Virus record (IMG/VR): IMGVR_UViG_3300008267_000861
Location: 1 to 27,003 of that record
Direction: 5' to 3' (one strand)
From: a virus
DNA: 27,003 nucleotides
Shown here piece after piece: positions 17,338 through 25,668 of this stretch (position 1 is its first letter; each line of letters begins with the position of its first letter). A model generated the notes under the pieces. The model was not told the origin of the DNA, ran no database searches, and saw only the letters and a list, made by a program, of their open reading frames with translations. The position numbers and the translations under genes are program-made.

Positions 17338-19227
17338 TTAACTGATTATAAATTGTTTTGCTAATCTTTTATTATATCCTTCCAAAACTAAAAGATACAT
17401 TCCTTTATCAACATTTAAGTCAACTTTAGTTTTAACTATACCATTGTATTCATTTTTAATTTCACCTATTGTTTTAACTAATCTACCATTGAAATCATAT
17501 ACTTTAGCAACTATAGAATTCATATTAGAATTAGGGAATGTTATTGATACTTCAAAAGCACCTGAGTTTGGGTTTGGATAAATTATAGCTGATAATTCAT
17601 TAGTTGAATTAGAAGCATATGAAGGAGCCATTCTGCTTGTTAATAAAATTCTATCTGAAGCTAAAGCTATATTAAAATGATCTCCATTTTTATCAGACGC
17701 ATCCATTAATTTTCTAATATAAACAGCTGTTGTGACATCATTATTTCCTATAGGTGAAAATTTAAGTTTAAATGGAGTTGAAGTACCATTTAAAAAACCT
17801 CTATCTTGATTATTCATTCCTCCAAATCTAACAATACCATTAACTTCATCATGAGTCATATATTGTAACCAAGGTCCTTGAATATTAGAAACAATTTCTT
17901 CAAATTTAACTTTAGTTGGATCATATTTCATTTCAAATTGTAATCCAGCATTATCAGTATTATTTGTGTTTATATTAAATGGAACATATAATGGTTGTCC
18001 TAAACCAGCATAAGTATCAGGAACCTGAACTCCTAGATTACCATTAAATCTAGCAGCAGCTACTAAAACACCTTGAGCATTATAAACTGGAGATGAATGG
18101 GTTCTATCAACATCACCTAAAACAAAATATTTAATATCTAATGTTAAGTTAGTCACACCAACACTATCATAAATAAAGTTTTCTCTATTAATATAAGTAG
18201 CCCAATCATTCCATTGGTTAGCTCCTAATACTAATGAATCATATTCTTGTTTACTAAATGCACTAATTAATTTAGTTGTGTCAATTGGTTTTAAACCTGA
18301 TACTGAAGCATATATTGAATATGGGTCACCACCATCTAATGTACCTGTTTTATTAATATCACCAATTAGATAAGCTAAACCATTTTGTAAATACTGATGT
18401 CCAAATGTTTGGTTAACATCAGTGTAAGTATATTCATTATAAGATTTAGTAGCATCAGCTATTGTGACACCATTATCTCTTATACTAATTAAACTATCTT
18501 GAGGAAATTGTAAACGTAATTTATATTTTGTATTTTCATCAATATTGATTAAAGTATAAGTACCATTAGCAGCTACAGTTGTTGATGAAATAAAAGCACC
18601 ATTATTAGCTTGAGTACAAATAATTTGAGGTAATGAAGCCATATTTGGTCCTAACCATACTTTACCTGATATAGTTAAGTTACCTAATAATTTAATTGCT
18701 AATTTTTGATTTGTTAATTGAGCAACATTATCACCAATTGTAGTACCATCAACTTTAAACATACGAGCCCAGTTAACAGTGATTGTATCTGACACGTAGT
18801 TTGGTTGTACATTATTAATTTTATACTTATTATGAATTATATATCCATTAGTACTAATAGTTGAACCACTTGATAATACTAAGTAGTTACGACCTACTGT
18901 CCAACTAGTATCAGCTGAGTAAGTATAAGTACCATTTGAATAATTACTATATTTGTAATTATCCCATGTTTTATAACTAACTGTAGGAGTCATATTATTA
19001 ACAGACGCATCTACAGTAGTTGAAATATGAGTTAATAATGTTTTTTTATACTGCCAATCAACTTGGAAAGTACGAACATCTGGAGCACCTGGTCTATAAT
19101 ACCAAGTAACATCTAAAGTGTCTCCTCTTCTTACAGTAGCAAGAGTCTGAAAGTGACCAATTTGAGGAGTTTGAGAATAAGAGGCGAAACTGATTAAAAG
19201 CGAGATTGCTAATAATAGTTTTTTCAT
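17338..19227 (-). CDS. Type IX secretion cargo with cohesin-like and dockerin-like modules
   Basis: A 629 aa exported protein. After signal peptide MKKLLLAISLLISFASYSQ comes a beta-rich region (20-280). Next is a dockerin-like calcium loop, GDINKTGTLDGGD (about 290), with a second GDVDRTHSS. A cohesin-like beta-sandwich follows (about 390-530), with LYVPFNI, AGLQFEMKYDPTKVKFEEI and an FKLKF strand. The last 85 residues are a type A Por sorting domain: IIYPNPNSGAFEVSI, then VYDFNGRLVKTI, and GMYLLVLEG near the C-terminus. This domain directs Bacteroidota proteins through the type IX system to the cell surface. It is strong evidence for the host phylum and unexpected in a phage. It overlaps the upstream gene by 4 nt. 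Confidence 0.85.
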   Translation of the reverse strand: MKKLLLAISLLISFASYSQTPQIGHFQTLATVRRGDTLDVTWYYRPGAPDVRTFQVDWQYKKTLLTHISTTVDASVNNMTPTVSYKTWDNYKYSNYSNGTYTYSADTSWTVGRNYLVLSSGSTISTNGYIIHNKYKINNVQPNYVSDTITVNWARMFKVDGTTIGDNVAQLTNQKLAIKLLGNLTISGKVWLGPNMASLPQIICTQANNGAFISSTTVAANGTYTLINIDENTKYKLRLQFPQDSLISIRDNGVTIADATKSYNEYTYTDVNQTFGHQYLQNGLAYLIGDINKTGTLDGGDPYSIYASVSGLKPIDTTKLISAFSKQEYDSLVLGANQWNDWATYINRENFIYDSVGVTNLTLDIKYFVLGDVDRTHSSPVYNAQGVLVAAARFNGNLGVQVPDTYAGLGQPLYVPFNINTNNTDNAGLQFEMKYDPTKVKFEEIVSNIQGPWLQYMTHDEVNGIVRFGGMNNQDRGFLNGTSTPFKLKFSPIGNNDVTTAVYIRKLMDASDKNGDHFNIALASDRILLTSRMAPSYASNSTNELSAIIYPNPNSGAFEVSITFPNSNMNSIVAKVYDFNGRLVKTIGEIKNEYNGIVKTKVDLNVDKGMYLLVLEGYNKRLAKQFIIS

Positions 19228-19731: not shown

Positions 19732-19756
19732 AAAAAAAGCAGTCACTTGACTGCTT
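19732..19756 (-). terminator. Rho-independent terminator after tmRNA
   Basis: On the minus strand, AAGCAGTCA-AG-TGACTGCTT forms a perfect 9 bp stem (19737-19756) followed directly by a run of T. It closes the tmRNA transcript before the exported-protein cassette begins. Confidence 0.88.
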
Positions 19757-19825: not shown

Positions 19826-20196
19826 TGGAGGTGGAGGGATTCGAACCCTCGTCTTCATAAGGAACAATAACACTAACGTTTCACATGCTTAGATCTGATA
19901 AATCTGATCAGTAATTAGGGGCCGTTTAGTTTATGGACGGCCGACTCCACCACTTAATTTTTAAAGAATTAAGAAACTTTATTTTGTAACTTTATGTTCC
20001 TTGGTTGTTACCACCAGATTTTGATTAGGCAGCTACTGCGTAATCAGCACCGATGAACGCCATTACGTCGTCAAAGGTCATTGTAGATAATTCTACGTTT
20101 GCGTTTATTTGTTGAAAATTTGTTTAAAGGCGACATATCCAAACGCCTGCATGTAGTGGTACCTTCACATTATGAATCAAATACCTGGTCACCCCC
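19826..20196 (-). ncRNA. ssrA: Transfer-messenger RNA (tmRNA)
   Basis: A 371 nt tmRNA that would rescue stalled ribosomes. Its 5' end GGGGGTG pairs with 3' CACCTCC across the whole gene (7 bp, one G-U), giving the tRNA-like acceptor. The T arm GAGGG-TTCGAAT-CCCTC is perfect, and AAGCATGTGAAACG upstream of it matches the conserved 3' domain of bacterial tmRNAs. A pseudoknot-like stem AGGCG/CGCCT precedes AATAAAC-GCA-AAC, which closely mirrors the E. coli resume site. From resume codon GCA (20100-20102), the open frame runs 25 codons to TAA (20025-20027), beginning ANVE and ending GADYAVAA. That end is a typical ClpXP-type degron. The CCA is not encoded. Confidence 0.93.
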
Positions 20197-20205
20197 ATAG
20201 AGTGA

Positions 20206-20223
20206 AAGCCGCTTACGCGGCTT
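20206..20223 (-). terminator. Hairpin between lipoprotein gene and tmRNA
   Basis: AAGCCGC-GTAA-GCGGCTT (minus strand) forms a 7 bp stem with a GNRA loop, 4 nt after the small lipoprotein stop and 9 nt before the tmRNA 5' end. Only a short T run follows, so it may be a processing or partial termination signal. Confidence 0.6.
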
Positions 20224-20227
20224 AAAA

Positions 20228-20407
20228 TTACTTCACTTCTAAGTTTGGTGTGTTGCTAGTTGAATCAACTTTAACTGAATCTACTTTAACTGAAGTTGAA
20301 TCTACAGTCACAGCAGTTGAATCAGTAGTTGTAGCTGTACCTTCACTTGAACCGTTACAAGCAGCAAACATAATAGTGGCTGCGAACAAAAACATTACTT
20401 TTTTCAT
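20228..20407 (-). CDS. Small serine/threonine-rich lipoprotein
   Basis: A 59 aa gene reading MKKVMFLFAATIMFAAC at its start: a lipoprotein signal with a good lipobox and modified cysteine at residue 17. The mature 43 residues are Ser/Thr/Val/Asp-rich with imperfect VDST repeats (TTDSTAVTVDSTSVKVDS), probably unstructured. Such short acidic lipoproteins are common in flavobacteria. It lies between tRNA-Leu and tmRNA inside the RNA island, an odd place for a protein gene, and is probably transcribed with them. A hairpin follows its stop. Function unknown. Confidence 0.7.
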   Translation of the reverse strand: MKKVMFLFAATIMFAACNGSSEGTATTTDSTAVTVDSTSVKVDSVKVDSTSNTPNLEVK

Positions 20408-20440
20408 CTTACTTTTTTTTGATTAAAATTTAAATTTCAG

Positions 20441-20526
20441 TACCTCGGGCCAGAGTCGAACTGGCACGGGCTTTACAGCCCACAAGATTTTAAGTCTTGC
20501 ATGTCTACCGATTCCATCACCGAGGC
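20441..20526 (-). tRNA. tRNA-Leu (UAA)
   Basis: An 86 nt class II tRNA. The acceptor pairs GCCTCGG with CCGAGGT (one G-U), the anticodon loop CTTAAAA carries UAA, a long variable arm is present, and the T loop is TTCGACT. It reads UUA, a frequent codon in AT-rich genes. CCA is not encoded. Confidence 0.93.
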
Positions 20527-20609
20527 ATGTGTTTGGTAGGTTTAAAATAAAACAACCTGAGACTACAGTTGGCGCACTAGATCTTTTGAGGTATTATTTT
20601 ATTCTCCTC

Positions 20610-21457
20610 TTGTCCAGAGTCTTTTGAACCCTATTCTAGCAATGCTGGTTATTTAAGTGAACCACTCTTTGAGCTACTTTTTATTTTGGACTACTCTCTT
20701 CCTACTCACATCTATTCAAACCTGCCGGCCTGATTCACTCTTGCGGAGTTATAGAGTTTTCTGAAAAATCACTTTCGGCTTGCGACCTCAAGCGGCACTG
20801 GACAACCCAATACTATGTAAGCACCTTTCGTCCGTAGCTGGTGAACACTTTTGCTTAGTTGATATATGATTTTGCAATCTATAATGCAAATAAGTTGTGA
20901 CTGTGGATCATTAAGGTAGCGGTTCACCTTGAGCCGCGTCACCTTTTGAGCGAAACGATACTCAACTACCTTATAAGACATCCCTGCCTTCATATTTTAA
21001 GATATCTTCAGAATCAAAGTCTTGGTAGACTAAAATTAAGATTAGTAACAGCACCACCTGTACACTAATATACCTTCCCTATTTCTAGGCTACGGTTTTA
21101 AGACACCTCTTATATTGAGCAACGCAATCATATATCTGGATAGATATATTTTTTGCAAATACTCTATAGGTTATTCTTATTGCTCTTCCGAGCTCAACCT
21201 GACAACCCACATTGCCAAGTCATTAAACCCTTTCGCTACGGAGTTACCCTCACTACTTCAGGTCCAATGATACCCTACTTGCGTACTCAAGCTCATTTCT
21301 GAGCCGCAAACTGGTTTAGTCAAACCAATTCACTTTATACTGCTTTCACAGTTTATTTAATGACCATACGCGGCCAAATGTTATTTATAATACAGCCGAA
21401 ACTGTATTAATGGACAACAATTATTTCAAAGAACTTTTTTTTTATCTTATTATTGTA
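20610..21457 (-). ncRNA. Giant structured RNA, GOLLD/ROOL-like candidate
   Basis: About 810-850 nt without a credible gene but packed with helices when read on the minus strand. The ends pair: TTGTCCA (21411-21417) with TGGACAA (20610-20616). A second long-range 9 bp helix joins 21356-21364 to 21219-21227 and encloses several hairpins. GAAA tetraloops cap GCTCA/TGAGC (21291-21304) and CCTA/TAGG (21078-21089), and GGAA caps GCTC/GAGC. Other perfect hairpins lie at 21388-21409 and 21130-21149. GNRA loops fold only on this strand. Size, position among phage tRNAs and two tandem promoters immediately upstream match the GOLLD and ROOL giant RNA classes; the exact class needs a covariance-model search. 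Boundaries are approximate: the 5' end is set by the predicted start near 21457. Confidence 0.75.
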
Positions 21458-21463
21458 TAATAA

Positions 21464-21487
21464 ATATACAACAAATCTTTAGGTCAA
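21464..21487 (-). promoter_or_regulatory. Phage-type promoter for the giant RNA (proximal)
   Basis: Minus-strand TTGACCT (21481-21487) and TATATT (21464-21469) are 11 nt apart. A start about 7 nt downstream falls near 21457, some 40 nt before the closing helix of the giant RNA. Confidence 0.7.
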
Positions 21488-21541
21488 ACAAATTTTTTAT
21501 TTTCTTTCTTCACTTTTCTTTTTTCACTTTCTTATATATTA

Positions 21542-21566
21542 AATATATAATAAAACTTTAGGTCAA
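21542..21566 (-). promoter_or_regulatory. Phage-type promoter for the giant RNA (distal)
   Basis: Minus-strand TTGACCT (21560-21566) and TATATT (21542-21547) are 12 nt apart, giving a predicted start near 21535. It lies in tandem with the copy at 21464-21487; the AT-rich sequence between them holds no gene. Confidence 0.68.
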
Positions 21567-21586
21567 AAAACTATTTTACTAAATTG

Positions 21587-21693
21587 TGCGAGGTCCAGGA
21601 CTTGCACCTGTAAGCTATTACTAGCAAAATGATTGGACTCATTTCGTGTCTTCTATCGGCAGTCGTACGCCCGCTCGCTTCCACCACCCTCGC
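21587..21693 (-). tRNA. Abnormal class II tRNA-Leu-like gene
   Basis: A 107 nt tRNA-like sequence. The acceptor GCGAGGG/ACCTCGC pairs except at the seventh position. TGGTGGAA and a short variable arm (TGCTAGTAATAGCTTA) follow the bacterial tRNA-Leu pattern. Three departures are visible. The D-loop region has about 22 extra bases. The anticodon stem AAATG/CATTT closes an 8 nt loop, AGTCCAAT, instead of 7. The T loop reads TGCAAGT rather than TTCAAGT, with an A-G mismatch in its stem. The anticodon could be read as CCA or CAA, or as a quadruplet. It may be decayed, a frameshifting tRNA, or repurposed. CCA is not encoded. Confidence 0.6.
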
Positions 21694-21698
21694 ATTTG

Positions 21699-21770
21699 TA
21701 GTCCCGACAAGAATCGAACTTGTATCCGCTGCTTAGAAGGCAGCTGTTCTATCCGTTGAACTACAGGACC
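21699..21770 (-). tRNA. tRNA-Arg (UCU)
   Basis: A normal 72 nt cloverleaf: acceptor GGTCCTG/CGGGACT, anticodon stem GCTGC/GCAGC with loop CTTCTAA, T loop TTCGATT. It reads AGA, the usual arginine codon in AT-rich phage genes. Confidence 0.93.
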
Positions 21771-21791
21771 TTGTTTTCCGAAGCTCCTTAG

Positions 21792-21865
21792 TGGACCCTG
21801 CTGGGCTCGAACCAGCGACCCGCAGATTATGAGTCTGCTGCTCTAACCAACTGAGCTAAAGGTCC
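21792..21865 (-). tRNA. tRNA-Met (CAU)
   Basis: A 74 nt cloverleaf with acceptor GGACCTT/AGGGTCC, anticodon stem GCAGA/TCTGC, loop CTCATAA. The fully paired acceptor end argues for an elongator tRNA rather than initiator; a lysidine-modified Ile (CAU) tRNA cannot be excluded by sequence. Confidence 0.9.
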
Positions 21866-21869
21866 TAAG

Positions 21870-21956
21870 CGGAGGCTCAGGGATTCGAACCCCGGTTACA
21901 ATTTCTCGTAAATCGGTTTTCAAGACCGACGCATTCAACCACTCTGCCAAACCTCC
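21870..21956 (-). tRNA. tRNA-Ser (UGA)
   Basis: An 87 nt class II tRNA: acceptor GGAGGTT/AGCCTCC with discriminator G, anticodon loop CTTGAAA (UGA), extended variable arm, and T loop TTCGAAT. It reads UCA. Confidence 0.93.
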
Positions 21957-21957
21957 G

Positions 21958-22028
21958 TTACCACTCCTGGATTCGAACCAGAACTAACAGAACCAAAATC
22001 TGTTGTGCTACCGTTACACCAAGTGGCA
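21958..22028 (-). tRNA. tRNA-Gln (UUG)
   Basis: A 71 nt cloverleaf: acceptor TGCCACT/AGTGGTA, anticodon stem ACAGA/TCTGT, loop TTTTGGT (UUG). Only one base separates it from tRNA-Ser, so the primary transcript must be processed precisely. Confidence 0.92.
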
Positions 22029-22034
22029 CTTTAG

Positions 22035-22134
22035 CTGACCCTGCTGGAATCGAACCAGCGGCACGACTTATTTCCTCATGGTTGGTAAGCCTTGAGTACT
22101 ATAAGCTTGCTCTAACCTACTGAGCTAAGGGTCA
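22035..22134 (-). tRNA. Abnormal tRNA-like gene with expanded anticodon arm
   Basis: A 100 nt sequence with perfect tRNA ends: acceptor TGACCCT/AGGGTCA, a standard D arm (TAGCTCAGTAGGTTAGAGCA) and T arm GCTGG-TTCGATT-CCAGC. Where the anticodon arm should be there are about 30 extra bases. The best fold pairs GCTTAT with ATAAGT (one G-U). It then has an internal loop AGTA opposite GAA, resembling a bacterial loop-E/sarcin-ricin motif, then CTCA/TGAG capped by a 14 nt loop containing GGCTTACCAACC. No ordinary 7 nt anticodon loop is visible, so its amino acid and decoding role are unclear. Confidence 0.65.
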
Positions 22135-22142
22135 GATATTAG

Positions 22143-22214
22143 TACTCGGTACGGGAGTCGAACCCGTATTTCATCCGTGAAAGGGACGCGTCCTAACCAT
22201 TAGACGAACTGAGC
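22143..22214 (-). tRNA. tRNA-Glu (UUC)
   Basis: A 72 nt cloverleaf: anticodon stem CGTCC/GGATG with loop CTTTCAC (UUC), T arm ACGGG-TTCGACT-CCCGT. The acceptor GCTCAGT/ACCGAGT has one A-C mismatch at the fifth pair. It is the first gene after the tRNA-cluster promoter and reads GAA. Confidence 0.9.
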
Positions 22215-22223
22215 GACTGACAA

Positions 22224-22248
22224 AATATAGTAAAATAATTTAGGTTAA
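22224..22248 (-). promoter_or_regulatory. Phage-type promoter for the tRNA cluster
   Basis: Minus-strand TTAACCT (22242-22248) and TATATT (22224-22229), 12 nt apart. The predicted start near 22217 is about 3 nt before the 5' end of tRNA-Glu. One mismatch from TTGACCT. Confidence 0.62.
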
Positions 22249-22256
22249 AAAATTAT

Positions 22257-22679
22257 TTAAAGAACATATAATTTAGCTTTCCTAAATGATCTTGCTTTAT
22301 CATCAGGATTAATTAATATGTCAATTTTATTTTTAAATCGACTATTCATTAAATCTCTAACTACATAGACACCATTATATTTACCTATACCCTCTATTCT
22401 AACCTTTTTACCGAATTTAAGTATCCTTCTTAAATCATGACTGATAGCTATTATTCGGTGTTTTTTAGGGTTTAAAGAGTCAACTATAAACCCACTAGCT
22501 GTTTCTGTTGGGCTACTATCTGTTTGTAGTGGATCAACAGTATACATAGTCACACTGACAACACGATAATCCTTTTTCTTTTTCTTTTCTTCTTCTACTA
22601 ATTGTCTATTGTGTCTGTAATTTCCAATTAACATAGGTATAGATACTATTCCTATTATTATAAAAATCATTTTTCTCAT
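22257..22679 (-). CDS. 3D-domain (MltA/RlpA-like) putative peptidoglycan-active protein
   Basis: A 140 aa protein with an N-terminal membrane anchor (about 3-19, KMIFIIIGIVSIPMLIG) and a 3D double-psi beta-barrel domain. The domain has SVTMYTVDPLQTDSSPTETA, IIAISHDLRRILKFGKKVRI, GKYNGVYVVRDLMNSR and KIDILI, with the conserved aspartates that name it. In MltA-like transglycosylases this fold cleaves glycan strands, so a lysis or wall-remodelling role is likely. An ATG two codons earlier (22685) exists. The ATG at 22679 is preferred because it lies 7 nt from the promoter TATATT box, as in the other two promoter-linked genes. Confidence 0.78.
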   Translation of the reverse strand: MRKMIFIIIGIVSIPMLIGNYRHNRQLVEEEKKKKKDYRVVSVTMYTVDPLQTDSSPTETASGFIVDSLNPKKHRIIAISHDLRRILKFGKKVRIEGIGKYNGVYVVRDLMNSRFKNKIDILINPDDKARSFRKAKLYVL

Positions 22680-22778: not shown

Positions 22779-24419
22779 TTAAAATCCTAAGCCTGGATTT
22801 CCGTATTCTTCTTCTTTCTTTTCTTTAGTTGGTTCCTCATGAACAATTGTTTCTGTTGTTAACACTGTTCCAGCTACTGCTGCTGCATTTTCAACCGCTA
22901 AACGAGTTACTTTAGTTGGATCTAAAATACCTTCATCTTCCATATTAACAAATGTTTCTGATTTTAAATCATAACCATACCAAGTACCTTTTAATTTACC
23001 TAATTCATATAAATAATAAGTTGGATTAGATAAACCAGCGTTTTCTAAAATTTGAATAAATGGTGATGATAAAGATGAGTAAACAATTCTTTTACCTGTA
23101 TTAAAGTCATCACTGTCTTCTTTACTATATGTAATTGCTTCTCTAGCGTATAATAAAGCAGCTCCACCACCTGGTAATACTCCTTCTTCTACTGCTGCGC
23201 GTGTAGCAAATAAAGCATCTTCAACTCTATCTTTATATTCTTTTAACTCAATTTCATTATTACCACCTACATTAATAATAGCAACACCACCTACAAGTTT
23301 ACCTAAACGTTCTTGTAATTTTTCTTTTTCAAAGAATGATTGTGCTTTATCAATTTGTATTTTAATTTCTTCAGCTCTATTTGTAATTGCTTCTTCAGAA
23401 CCTTTACCATCAACAACTGTTGTTTTATCTTTACTTACAGTTACTGTTCTGGCTTTACCTAAATAAGATCTTAATTGATCTGAAGTCATTTTATCTAATT
23501 TCAATCCTTTGTCTTTAGATATAACTTGACCACCAGTTACAATAGCTAAATCTTCTAATAATAATGTTCTACGTTCACCAAAGTCAGGAGCTTTAACAGC
23601 TACTACTTTAACAATACCTCTCATTTTGTTAACAATGAGTGTCGCTAATGCTTCACCATCAATATCTTCAGCTACAATTAATAATGATTTATTTTCACCA
23701 TTTACTTTTTGTAATACATTTAACAAATCAGCAGCCGCATTAATTCTTCCATCATAAATTAAAATATATGGATCATCAAGTGTAGCTTGCATTGTGCTAT
23801 TATTAGTAACAAAATAAGGTGATTTATAACCTCTATCAAACTGAATGCCTTCAACTACTTCAAGTGTTGTTTCACCTGTTTTACTTTCTTCAATAGCTAC
23901 AACACCATCACGACCTACTTTTTCTAAAGCAGTCGCTACTAAATTACCTGTAAATTCATCATTGTTAGATGAAATAGTAGCTACTTGTTGTAATTGATCT
24001 TCTGATGAAATATCTCTACTGTTTGATTTTAAAGCTTTAATTACTTGTTTAACAGCTGAATCAATACCTTTTTTAATTTCAACAGCATTTGCTCCAGCTC
24101 TAACTTTACTTAAACCTTCTTTTACCATTGTATTGGCTAATAGAGTAGTTGTAGTAGTTCCATCACCTGCAGTGTTAGCTGAGCGTATTGCGGCTTGTTT
24201 AACAATCTCAGCACCAATGTTCTCGATTGGATCTTTAAGTTTAATAGATTTTGCGACAGTAACTCCATCTTTTGTTGCCTGTGGTAATTCATTTTCTTTT
24301 TCAATAATGACATTACGACCAAATGGACCTAATGTTGTGACAACGGCTTTTGATAATTGATCAATACCGTCAGCTAATTTTTGTCTAGCTTCTGTGTTAT
24401 ATACAATAATTTTACTCAT
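22779..24419 (-). CDS. groL: Chaperonin GroEL (Hsp60)
   Basis: A 546 aa, full-length group I chaperonin subunit that would form a 14-mer and fold substrate proteins with GroES and ATP. Conserved elements are TTLGPFGRNVIIEK (about 28-41), TKDGVTVAKSI, the ATP-site TAGDGTTTTT, and DALFATRAAVEEGVLPGGGA, whose VEDA aspartate matches the hydrolytic residue (E. coli D398). The apical domain includes FDRGYKSPYFV. The usual C-terminal GGM repeats are replaced by KKEEEYGNPGLGF, as often seen outside Proteobacteria and in phage versions. It follows groES with an 8 nt overlap. It probably folds phage virion or replication proteins. Confidence 0.96.
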   Translation of the reverse strand: MSKIIVYNTEARQKLADGIDQLSKAVVTTLGPFGRNVIIEKENELPQATKDGVTVAKSIKLKDPIENIGAEIVKQAAIRSANTAGDGTTTTTLLANTMVKEGLSKVRAGANAVEIKKGIDSAVKQVIKALKSNSRDISSEDQLQQVATISSNNDEFTGNLVATALEKVGRDGVVAIEESKTGETTLEVVEGIQFDRGYKSPYFVTNNSTMQATLDDPYILIYDGRINAAADLLNVLQKVNGENKSLLIVAEDIDGEALATLIVNKMRGIVKVVAVKAPDFGERRTLLLEDLAIVTGGQVISKDKGLKLDKMTSDQLRSYLGKARTVTVSKDKTTVVDGKGSEEAITNRAEEIKIQIDKAQSFFEKEKLQERLGKLVGGVAIINVGGNNEIELKEYKDRVEDALFATRAAVEEGVLPGGGAALLYAREAITYSKEDSDDFNTGKRIVYSSLSSPFIQILENAGLSNPTYYLYELGKLKGTWYGYDLKSETFVNMEDEGILDPTKVTRLAVENAAAVAGTVLTTETIVHEEPTKEKKEEEYGNPGLGF

Positions 24420-24946: not shown

Positions 24947-25668
24947 GGTAGGTCTCTTTTTAAATTATCCTTTTAGGACTTGTTTTGGTGATTTAATTTC
25001 AATTTTCTTTGGCTTATTTTCTTTAGCAAACGGAATGTCTAATGTTAACAATCCTTTGTCTAAACTAGCCTCTAATTTAGCTAAATCATATTTACTTGAG
25101 ATCTTCCAAGCGATGTCAAAACTAGCTTTCTTAATTGAACGATGTAAATATCTATACTCGTTCTTTTCTTTTTGTTTTTCATCTTCCGTTTTACGGTAAG
25201 CGATACGAAGTGTTTCTGAATCAACAATGATTTCAATTTCGTCATTTGTTAATCCAATTGCTGCGACTTCAATTTTTAATCCATTGTCTGTTTCTTGAAC
25301 ATCACAAGGATGATTAACAACTTTCTCTTTAATTGGTTTAAAGATAGAATTGCTGTCGAAAAATGATTTCCATAGTAAATCAAATTCCTCATTGAAATTC
25401 CAAAAGTCGTTATAAGTTGGTGAATGATAAGTGGCTGGATTGTAAAGATTTGTTGTGCCACTTGTTAGGCCATTTGTTGTTGTTATATAGCCATTAACAT
25501 TTGAAGTGCCCGTTAATGTTGGGCCTGCGATTGTGTTTGTGTAGTACGCGCTATTTAAGCCGTCCGTTACTACGAATACATCTGTAGTACTCATTTTTTT
25601 CTCCTTTTTTGTGCTCCCCTAAGGTAAGCGGTTAATTATTAATTGTTTTCAAAACCTAGAGACCTACC
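24947..25668. repeat. Inverted repeat enclosing hsp20
   Basis: GGTAGGTCTCT at 24947-24957 and its exact reverse complement AGAGACCTACC at 25658-25668 (plus strand) flank the hsp20 gene. The 3' arm lies 7 nt past the stop and the 5' arm about 63 nt before the start. The mRNA ends could pair into an 11 bp stem around the ORF and its ribosome-binding site. Confidence 0.7.
24965..25594 (-). CDS. Small heat-shock protein (Hsp20/alpha-crystallin)
   Basis: A 209 aa small heat-shock protein that would hold unfolding proteins in a refoldable state. The alpha-crystallin domain spans about 95-195, with PCDVQETDNGLKIEVAAIGL, ILVDSETL-like IEIIVDSETLRIAYRK, EYRYLHRSIKKASFDIAW, and the signature LEASLDKGLLTLDIPF. 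The C-terminal KKIEIK carries the I-x-I anchor. The N-terminal 65 residues are Gly/Thr/Asn/Tyr-rich and low complexity, unusual for bacterial Hsp20. It has a strong Shine-Dalgarno, AAAAAAGGAGAAAAAA, 5' of ATGAGTAC, the same as the gene at 4237-4551. Hsp20 is common in T4-like marine phages. Confidence 0.92.
   Translation of the reverse strand: MSTTDVFVVTDGLNSAYYTNTIAGPTLTGTSNVNGYITTTNGLTSGTTNLYNPATYHSPTYNDFWNFNEEFDLLWKSFFDSNSIFKPIKEKVVNHPCDVQETDNGLKIEVAAIGLTNDEIEIIVDSETLRIAYRKTEDEKQKEKNEYRYLHRSIKKASFDIAWKISSKYDLAKLEASLDKGLLTLDIPFAKENKPKKIEIKSPKQVLKG

Follow-up and report, generated by a model that had tools for sequence, protein, structure and literature searches.

A boxA-like leader motif upstream of a full-length GOLLD RNA in a probable Bacteroidota phage

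In one branch of phages the giant RNA GOLLD is almost always preceded by a boxA-like leader motif, and this association is one of two new observations, the other being that the corresponding site in four syntenic relatives has no GOLLD. The window, by which we mean the entire stretch of viral DNA that was analyzed (27,003 nucleotides, positions 1 to 27,003 of IMG/VR record IMGVR_UViG_3300008267_000861), carries the motif as GTTCTTTGA at 21426 to 21434 on the minus strand, directly upstream of the GOLLD 5' domain. Between −70 and +15 relative to the 5' domain, the exact sequence GTTCTTT(G/A)A was found in 32 of the 37 distinct GOLLD clusters with enough leader, and three of the five exceptions were one- or two-base variants (GTTCTTAAA at loci L006 and L120, GTTCTTTAT at locus L038). 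Dinucleotide-shuffled leaders carried the sequence at a rate of 0.34% (25 of 7,400), and elsewhere in the same loci it occurred 63 times in 740 kb, both strands counted, or 0.7% per 85 nt. Since the loci had been gathered by DNA patterns internal to the RNA, together with blastn in phage genomes, the leader motif was not selected for. The motif was absent before GOLLD in the 642-kb phage LR756502 (L013) and in Acinetobacter phages (L014 and L159), nor did we see it ahead of the GOLLDs of streptococcal phages. It is therefore a feature of a lineage, and boxA as a general feature of GOLLD was rejected. The leaders of ROOL RNAs at two loci in Bacilli contained neither GTTCTTT(G/A)A nor TGTTC(A/T)TTGA. 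The literature that we searched, to which the original description of GOLLD did not belong, yielded no paper treating boxA together with GOLLD.

The RNA had been put forward as a giant RNA akin to GOLLD or ROOL, occupying positions 20610 to 21457. A search with cmscan against Rfam 15 aligned the complete GOLLD model (RF02032, model positions 1 to 416 of 416) to 20554 to 20973 on the minus strand with 261.5 bits and an E value of 1e-73, the gathering score of the model being 150 bits, and ROOL (RF03087) gave no match even at an E value of ≤1 in a search of 20000 to 22300. These were the two models that the original prediction had suggested running; the GOLLD part of the proposal stood, and the ROOL part did not. 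RF02032 represents the 3' half of GOLLD only, with the 5' domain outside the model. The 5' domain was placed at 20974 to 21415 on the minus strand by an nhmmer profile built from ten full-length sequences, one of which was the window itself (hit at 21415 to 20556, E value of 2.4e-213), and an alignment of homologs (A1) showed compensatory pairs throughout it. Judged by its sequence, the region from 21415 to 20554 on the minus strand is an ordinary full-length GOLLD member. It is about 860 nt long and consists of a 5' domain of about 440 nt, a variable linker (at about columns 765 to 835 of the alignment), and the universally conserved 3' domain of 420 nt; the 5' domain could be aligned in 36 loci. 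The RF02032 match means that the interval first proposed was short by its last 56 nt (20554 to 20609), and at its other end it had included about 40 nt of leader and promoter.

The full-length profile produced 78 hits in the fetched loci, of which 60 were full length and formed 38 clusters at 93% identity. Among the carriers of GOLLD, an Acinetobacter phage and two phages with genomes of 634 and 642 kb were confirmed with the Rfam model. A pattern scan of a genome collection returned four loci, none of which scored in the homolog search, and these were taken as chance matches. Among 399 Bacilli genomes, no GOLLD passed a scan whose filters were so strict that the negative carries no information.

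The predicted lack of a protein gene and the dense folding of the minus strand were both borne out. The only open reading frame of at least 60 amino acids inside the region is 74 amino acids long, sense-strand open stretches in the 38 homologs were barely longer than in shuffles, and a hidden protein gene was rejected, as no long frame was consistent across the homologs. The minus-strand fold (−240.6 versus −198.5 kcal/mol; z = −5.8) was more stable than 20 of 20 dinucleotide shuffles. Covariation among homologs, which had been named as a check, was extensive: in A1, a plain MAFFT alignment of 36 homologs from other phage contigs, RNAalifold predicted 193 pairs over both domains (folding term, −132.7 kcal/mol; covariation term, −54.7 kcal/mol), and 137 of them had at least one kept double change, counts that do not represent independent events because the sequences are related and the alignment is plain MAFFT. 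Among the individual elements proposed, the 9-bp long-range helix AAGGUAGUU/..CUACCUU showed compensatory changes (columns 696 to 704 with 751 to 759), and the GAAA of a GAAA-capped hairpin was invariant in 36 of 36 homologs. A helix closing the two ends, UUGUCC/GGACAA, fared differently; it is present in the sequence of the window and not conserved, with 68% of cells able to pair, a single double-change cell, and a covariation score that was reached by 435 of 500 shuffles. It was rejected on these counts, and several relatives show AUCC opposite GGAC.

Two tandem promoter copies had been described upstream, and exact copies of TTTGACCTAAAG indeed lie at 21477 to 21488 and 21556 to 21567. They belong to a proximal and a distal promoter-like element on the minus strand, each of the form TTTGACCTAAAG ... 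TATATTTA (21461 to 21488 and 21540 to 21567, respectively), the −7-like TATATTTA of the proximal element being read from the sequence. Elements similar to the proximal one precede GOLLD at other loci, and in most clusters, as read by eye and uncounted, a TTTG ... TAnnTTT(G/A)-like promoter is followed by the boxA-like motif. We take this promoter-like element to be of the Bacteroidota kind.

The placement of the RNA among tRNAs in a phage was confirmed by ARAGORN, which called seven tRNA or tmRNA genes. A tRNA-Leu (TAA) at 20440 to 20526 on the minus strand begins 27 nt past the GOLLD 3' end, a tRNA cluster occupies 21698 to 22214, and a phage tmRNA (19825 to 20196, minus strand; Rfam tmRNA, 82.7 bits) follows further downstream, apparently as part of one transcription unit with GOLLD. 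Between 19700 and 22800, a single terminator-like hairpin was detected past GOLLD on this strand, at 19737 to 19756. Of the 38 GOLLD clusters, 34 have a same-strand tRNA within 600 nt, and roughly half of the distinct loci have a tRNA that starts no more than 30 nt from the GOLLD 3' end. The window also holds a tRNA whose anticodon arm exceeds the normal length by about 30 nt (22035 to 22134, minus strand; Rfam, 42.3 bits) that was not called by ARAGORN; it is about 84% conserved in three related contigs (L015, L016, and L021), and its slot in a fourth (L019) is taken by a normal-sized tRNA-Phe. A further tRNA-like element at 21588 to 21690 on the minus strand, with a GCGAGG...CCTCGC acceptor and an apparently enlarged D-loop, was called by neither ARAGORN nor Rfam and had no relative in the fetched loci; it lies within the segment that the related contigs lack.

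The leader motif is shared with host-type rRNA operons. When the best motif match within 400 nt upstream of 16S genes was taken, in genomes sampled from the phylum to which a Prevotella record belongs and from one of its orders, exact GTTCTTT(G/A)A was found in 22 of 42 Bacteroidota leaders, compared with 0.6% in mononucleotide shuffles, and several of these leaders share with the phage leaders an extension like GTTCTTTGAAAATATTG. In E. coli, boxA has the consensus GYTCTTTAANA (PMC5725501). The GTTCTTTGA of the window resembles an rrn-type boxA in two respects, namely, its sequence identity with the rRNA leaders of the phylum and its conserved position between promoter and RNA. The identity of the motif with the Bacteroidota 16S boxA suggests that transcription of GOLLD may borrow the host NusB/S10 machinery. 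Of 339 tRNA or tmRNA genes in the GOLLD loci, 22 have the motif in the sense orientation no more than 80 nt upstream, and none has it in the antisense orientation. A second boxA-like motif in the window, GTTCTTTAA at 22257 to 22265 on the minus strand, lies upstream of the tRNA cluster. In relatives without GOLLD, GTTCTTTAA or GTTCTTTGA stands on the plus strand directly before the phage tmRNA (L015, 5441; L016, 11239; L017, 7501; L019, 10657; L021, 11156), a place where the window has no such motif.

The phage probably infects Bacteroidota, as had been predicted; the support is indirect and comes from a Por_Secre_tail domain, a GroEL closest to those of Flavobacterium phages (56%), and the type of the promoter and boxA. 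The domain, a sorting signal for type IX secretion that is characteristic of Bacteroidota and was here found on a phage contig, is part of a 629-amino-acid protein encoded at 17338 to 19227 on the minus strand. The GroEL-like chaperonin (phrog_5725) is encoded at 22779 to 24419 and an Hsp20-family protein at 24965 to 25594, both on the minus strand.

The segment between tRNA-Arg and tRNA-Leu (20527 to 21697, minus strand) appears to be a site of GOLLD gain or loss. It measures 1,171 nt in the window but only 58 to 59 nt in four syntenic contigs (L015, L016, L019, and L021), as established by blastn synteny and junction alignment. These contigs share the flanking GroEL gene, with proteins 90 to 91% identical, and their short gap holds one element similar to the distal promoter-like element. 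No GOLLD was detected in 12 relative contigs by a search that recovered it in known carriers; these contigs are fragments, and so GOLLD may lie elsewhere in those genomes. Given the short gap in the four relatives, it is probable that the lineage of the window acquired the GOLLD unit, gain being a simpler explanation than loss.

We propose that the tandem host-type promoters would transcribe GOLLD and that the nascent boxA would bind host NusB and S10, modifying RNA polymerase as on rRNA operons. The modified polymerase would then complete a long, untranslated, and highly structured RNA that folds properly, whether by antitermination or through co-transcriptional folding. The tRNA-Leu, and possibly the tmRNA, would share the GOLLD transcript, and RNase P cleavage at the 5' end of the tRNA-Leu would contribute to the release of the 3' end of GOLLD. 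By homology with GOLLD env-38, which forms a hollow 14-mer RNA cage as seen by cryo-EM (PMC12286853), the product may assemble into a homo-oligomeric hollow cage that would be abundant during infection; GOLLD expression goes up during lysis (PMC12286853). We consider this scheme as a whole, from a complete GOLLD with tandem promoters through boxA-NusB/S10 and tRNA-Leu processing to cage assembly, to be likely. In E. coli, rRNA folds with the help of Nus factors and boxA, maturation being their main role there, and in a reporter boxA can prevent Rho termination of a noncoding RNA (PMC4807359). We give roughly even chances to the more specific idea that GOLLD in the branch carried by Bacteroidota-type phages is made by hijacking boxA and NusB-S10 as both an antitermination system and a folding chaperone, in mimicry of rRNA biogenesis. 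If this were the case, Nus factors and S10 could be drawn away from ribosome synthesis.

The leader motif might instead be a structural part of GOLLD that pairs with the conserved AAGAGUGG of the 3' domain and is not a NusB/S10 site. RNAalifold does pair columns 74 to 77 with columns 1031 to 1034, and this pairing can form in nearly all sequences; however, it is a weak helix of 4 bp in which none of the four pairs has changed on both sides. Further against this idea, the distance between the motif and the 5' domain varies across loci from −9 to −59, the 3' segment is kept in GOLLDs that have no motif (L013 and L014), and the same motif also stands before tRNAs, tmRNAs, and 16S rRNA. We regard a purely structural role as unlikely.

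We find it less probable still that the window holds a decayed, nonfunctional GOLLD copy captured with the tRNA cassette. The close relatives with no GOLLD at the same site make the RNA look dispensable, and the adjoining tRNA-like element at 21588 to 21690 looks degenerate, but few pairs are broken in the end-to-end alignment to the model, none of the conserved loops is disrupted, and both the leader and the promoter-like elements are present. The original prediction had also allowed for a new class akin to neither GOLLD nor ROOL, a reading to which the large, structured, phage-borne, and tRNA-linked character of the RNA would lend itself. The full-length RF02032 match, far above the cutoff, counts as its refutation, and both domains align at the sequence level with dozens of GOLLDs, so that we assign this reading almost no probability.

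The conservation of a ribosomal-type leader across one large phage branch offers a concrete, testable handle on the transcription and intracellular folding of an RNA that forms RNA-only cages, and the boxA-like leader may be linked to the ribosome association that has been reported. The relatives with an empty site form natural plus/minus pairs that could reveal how GOLLD benefits a phage.

Among known systems, the RNA of the window is most directly compared with GOLLD env-38, which it resembles in its full-length covariance model match, its two domains of about 420 to 440 nt, its variable linker, and its location in a phage among tRNAs. It differs from the RNA described in the env-38 cryo-EM paper in having a boxA-like leader, of which that paper makes no mention (PMC12286853). 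With ROOL (RF03087) it shares the size class and the phage and tRNA neighborhood, and cage formation is a ROOL feature as well, but it has no match to that model at an E value of ≤1. The comparison with the Bacteroidota rRNA operon leader differs in that the phage leader would drive GOLLD or tRNA and tmRNA genes rather than rRNA and in that its NusB site is putative; the two have in common an identical 9-mer, a promoter upstream, a long structured RNA downstream, and, in some leaders (for example, L172 and L005), the AAAATATTG that follows the motif.
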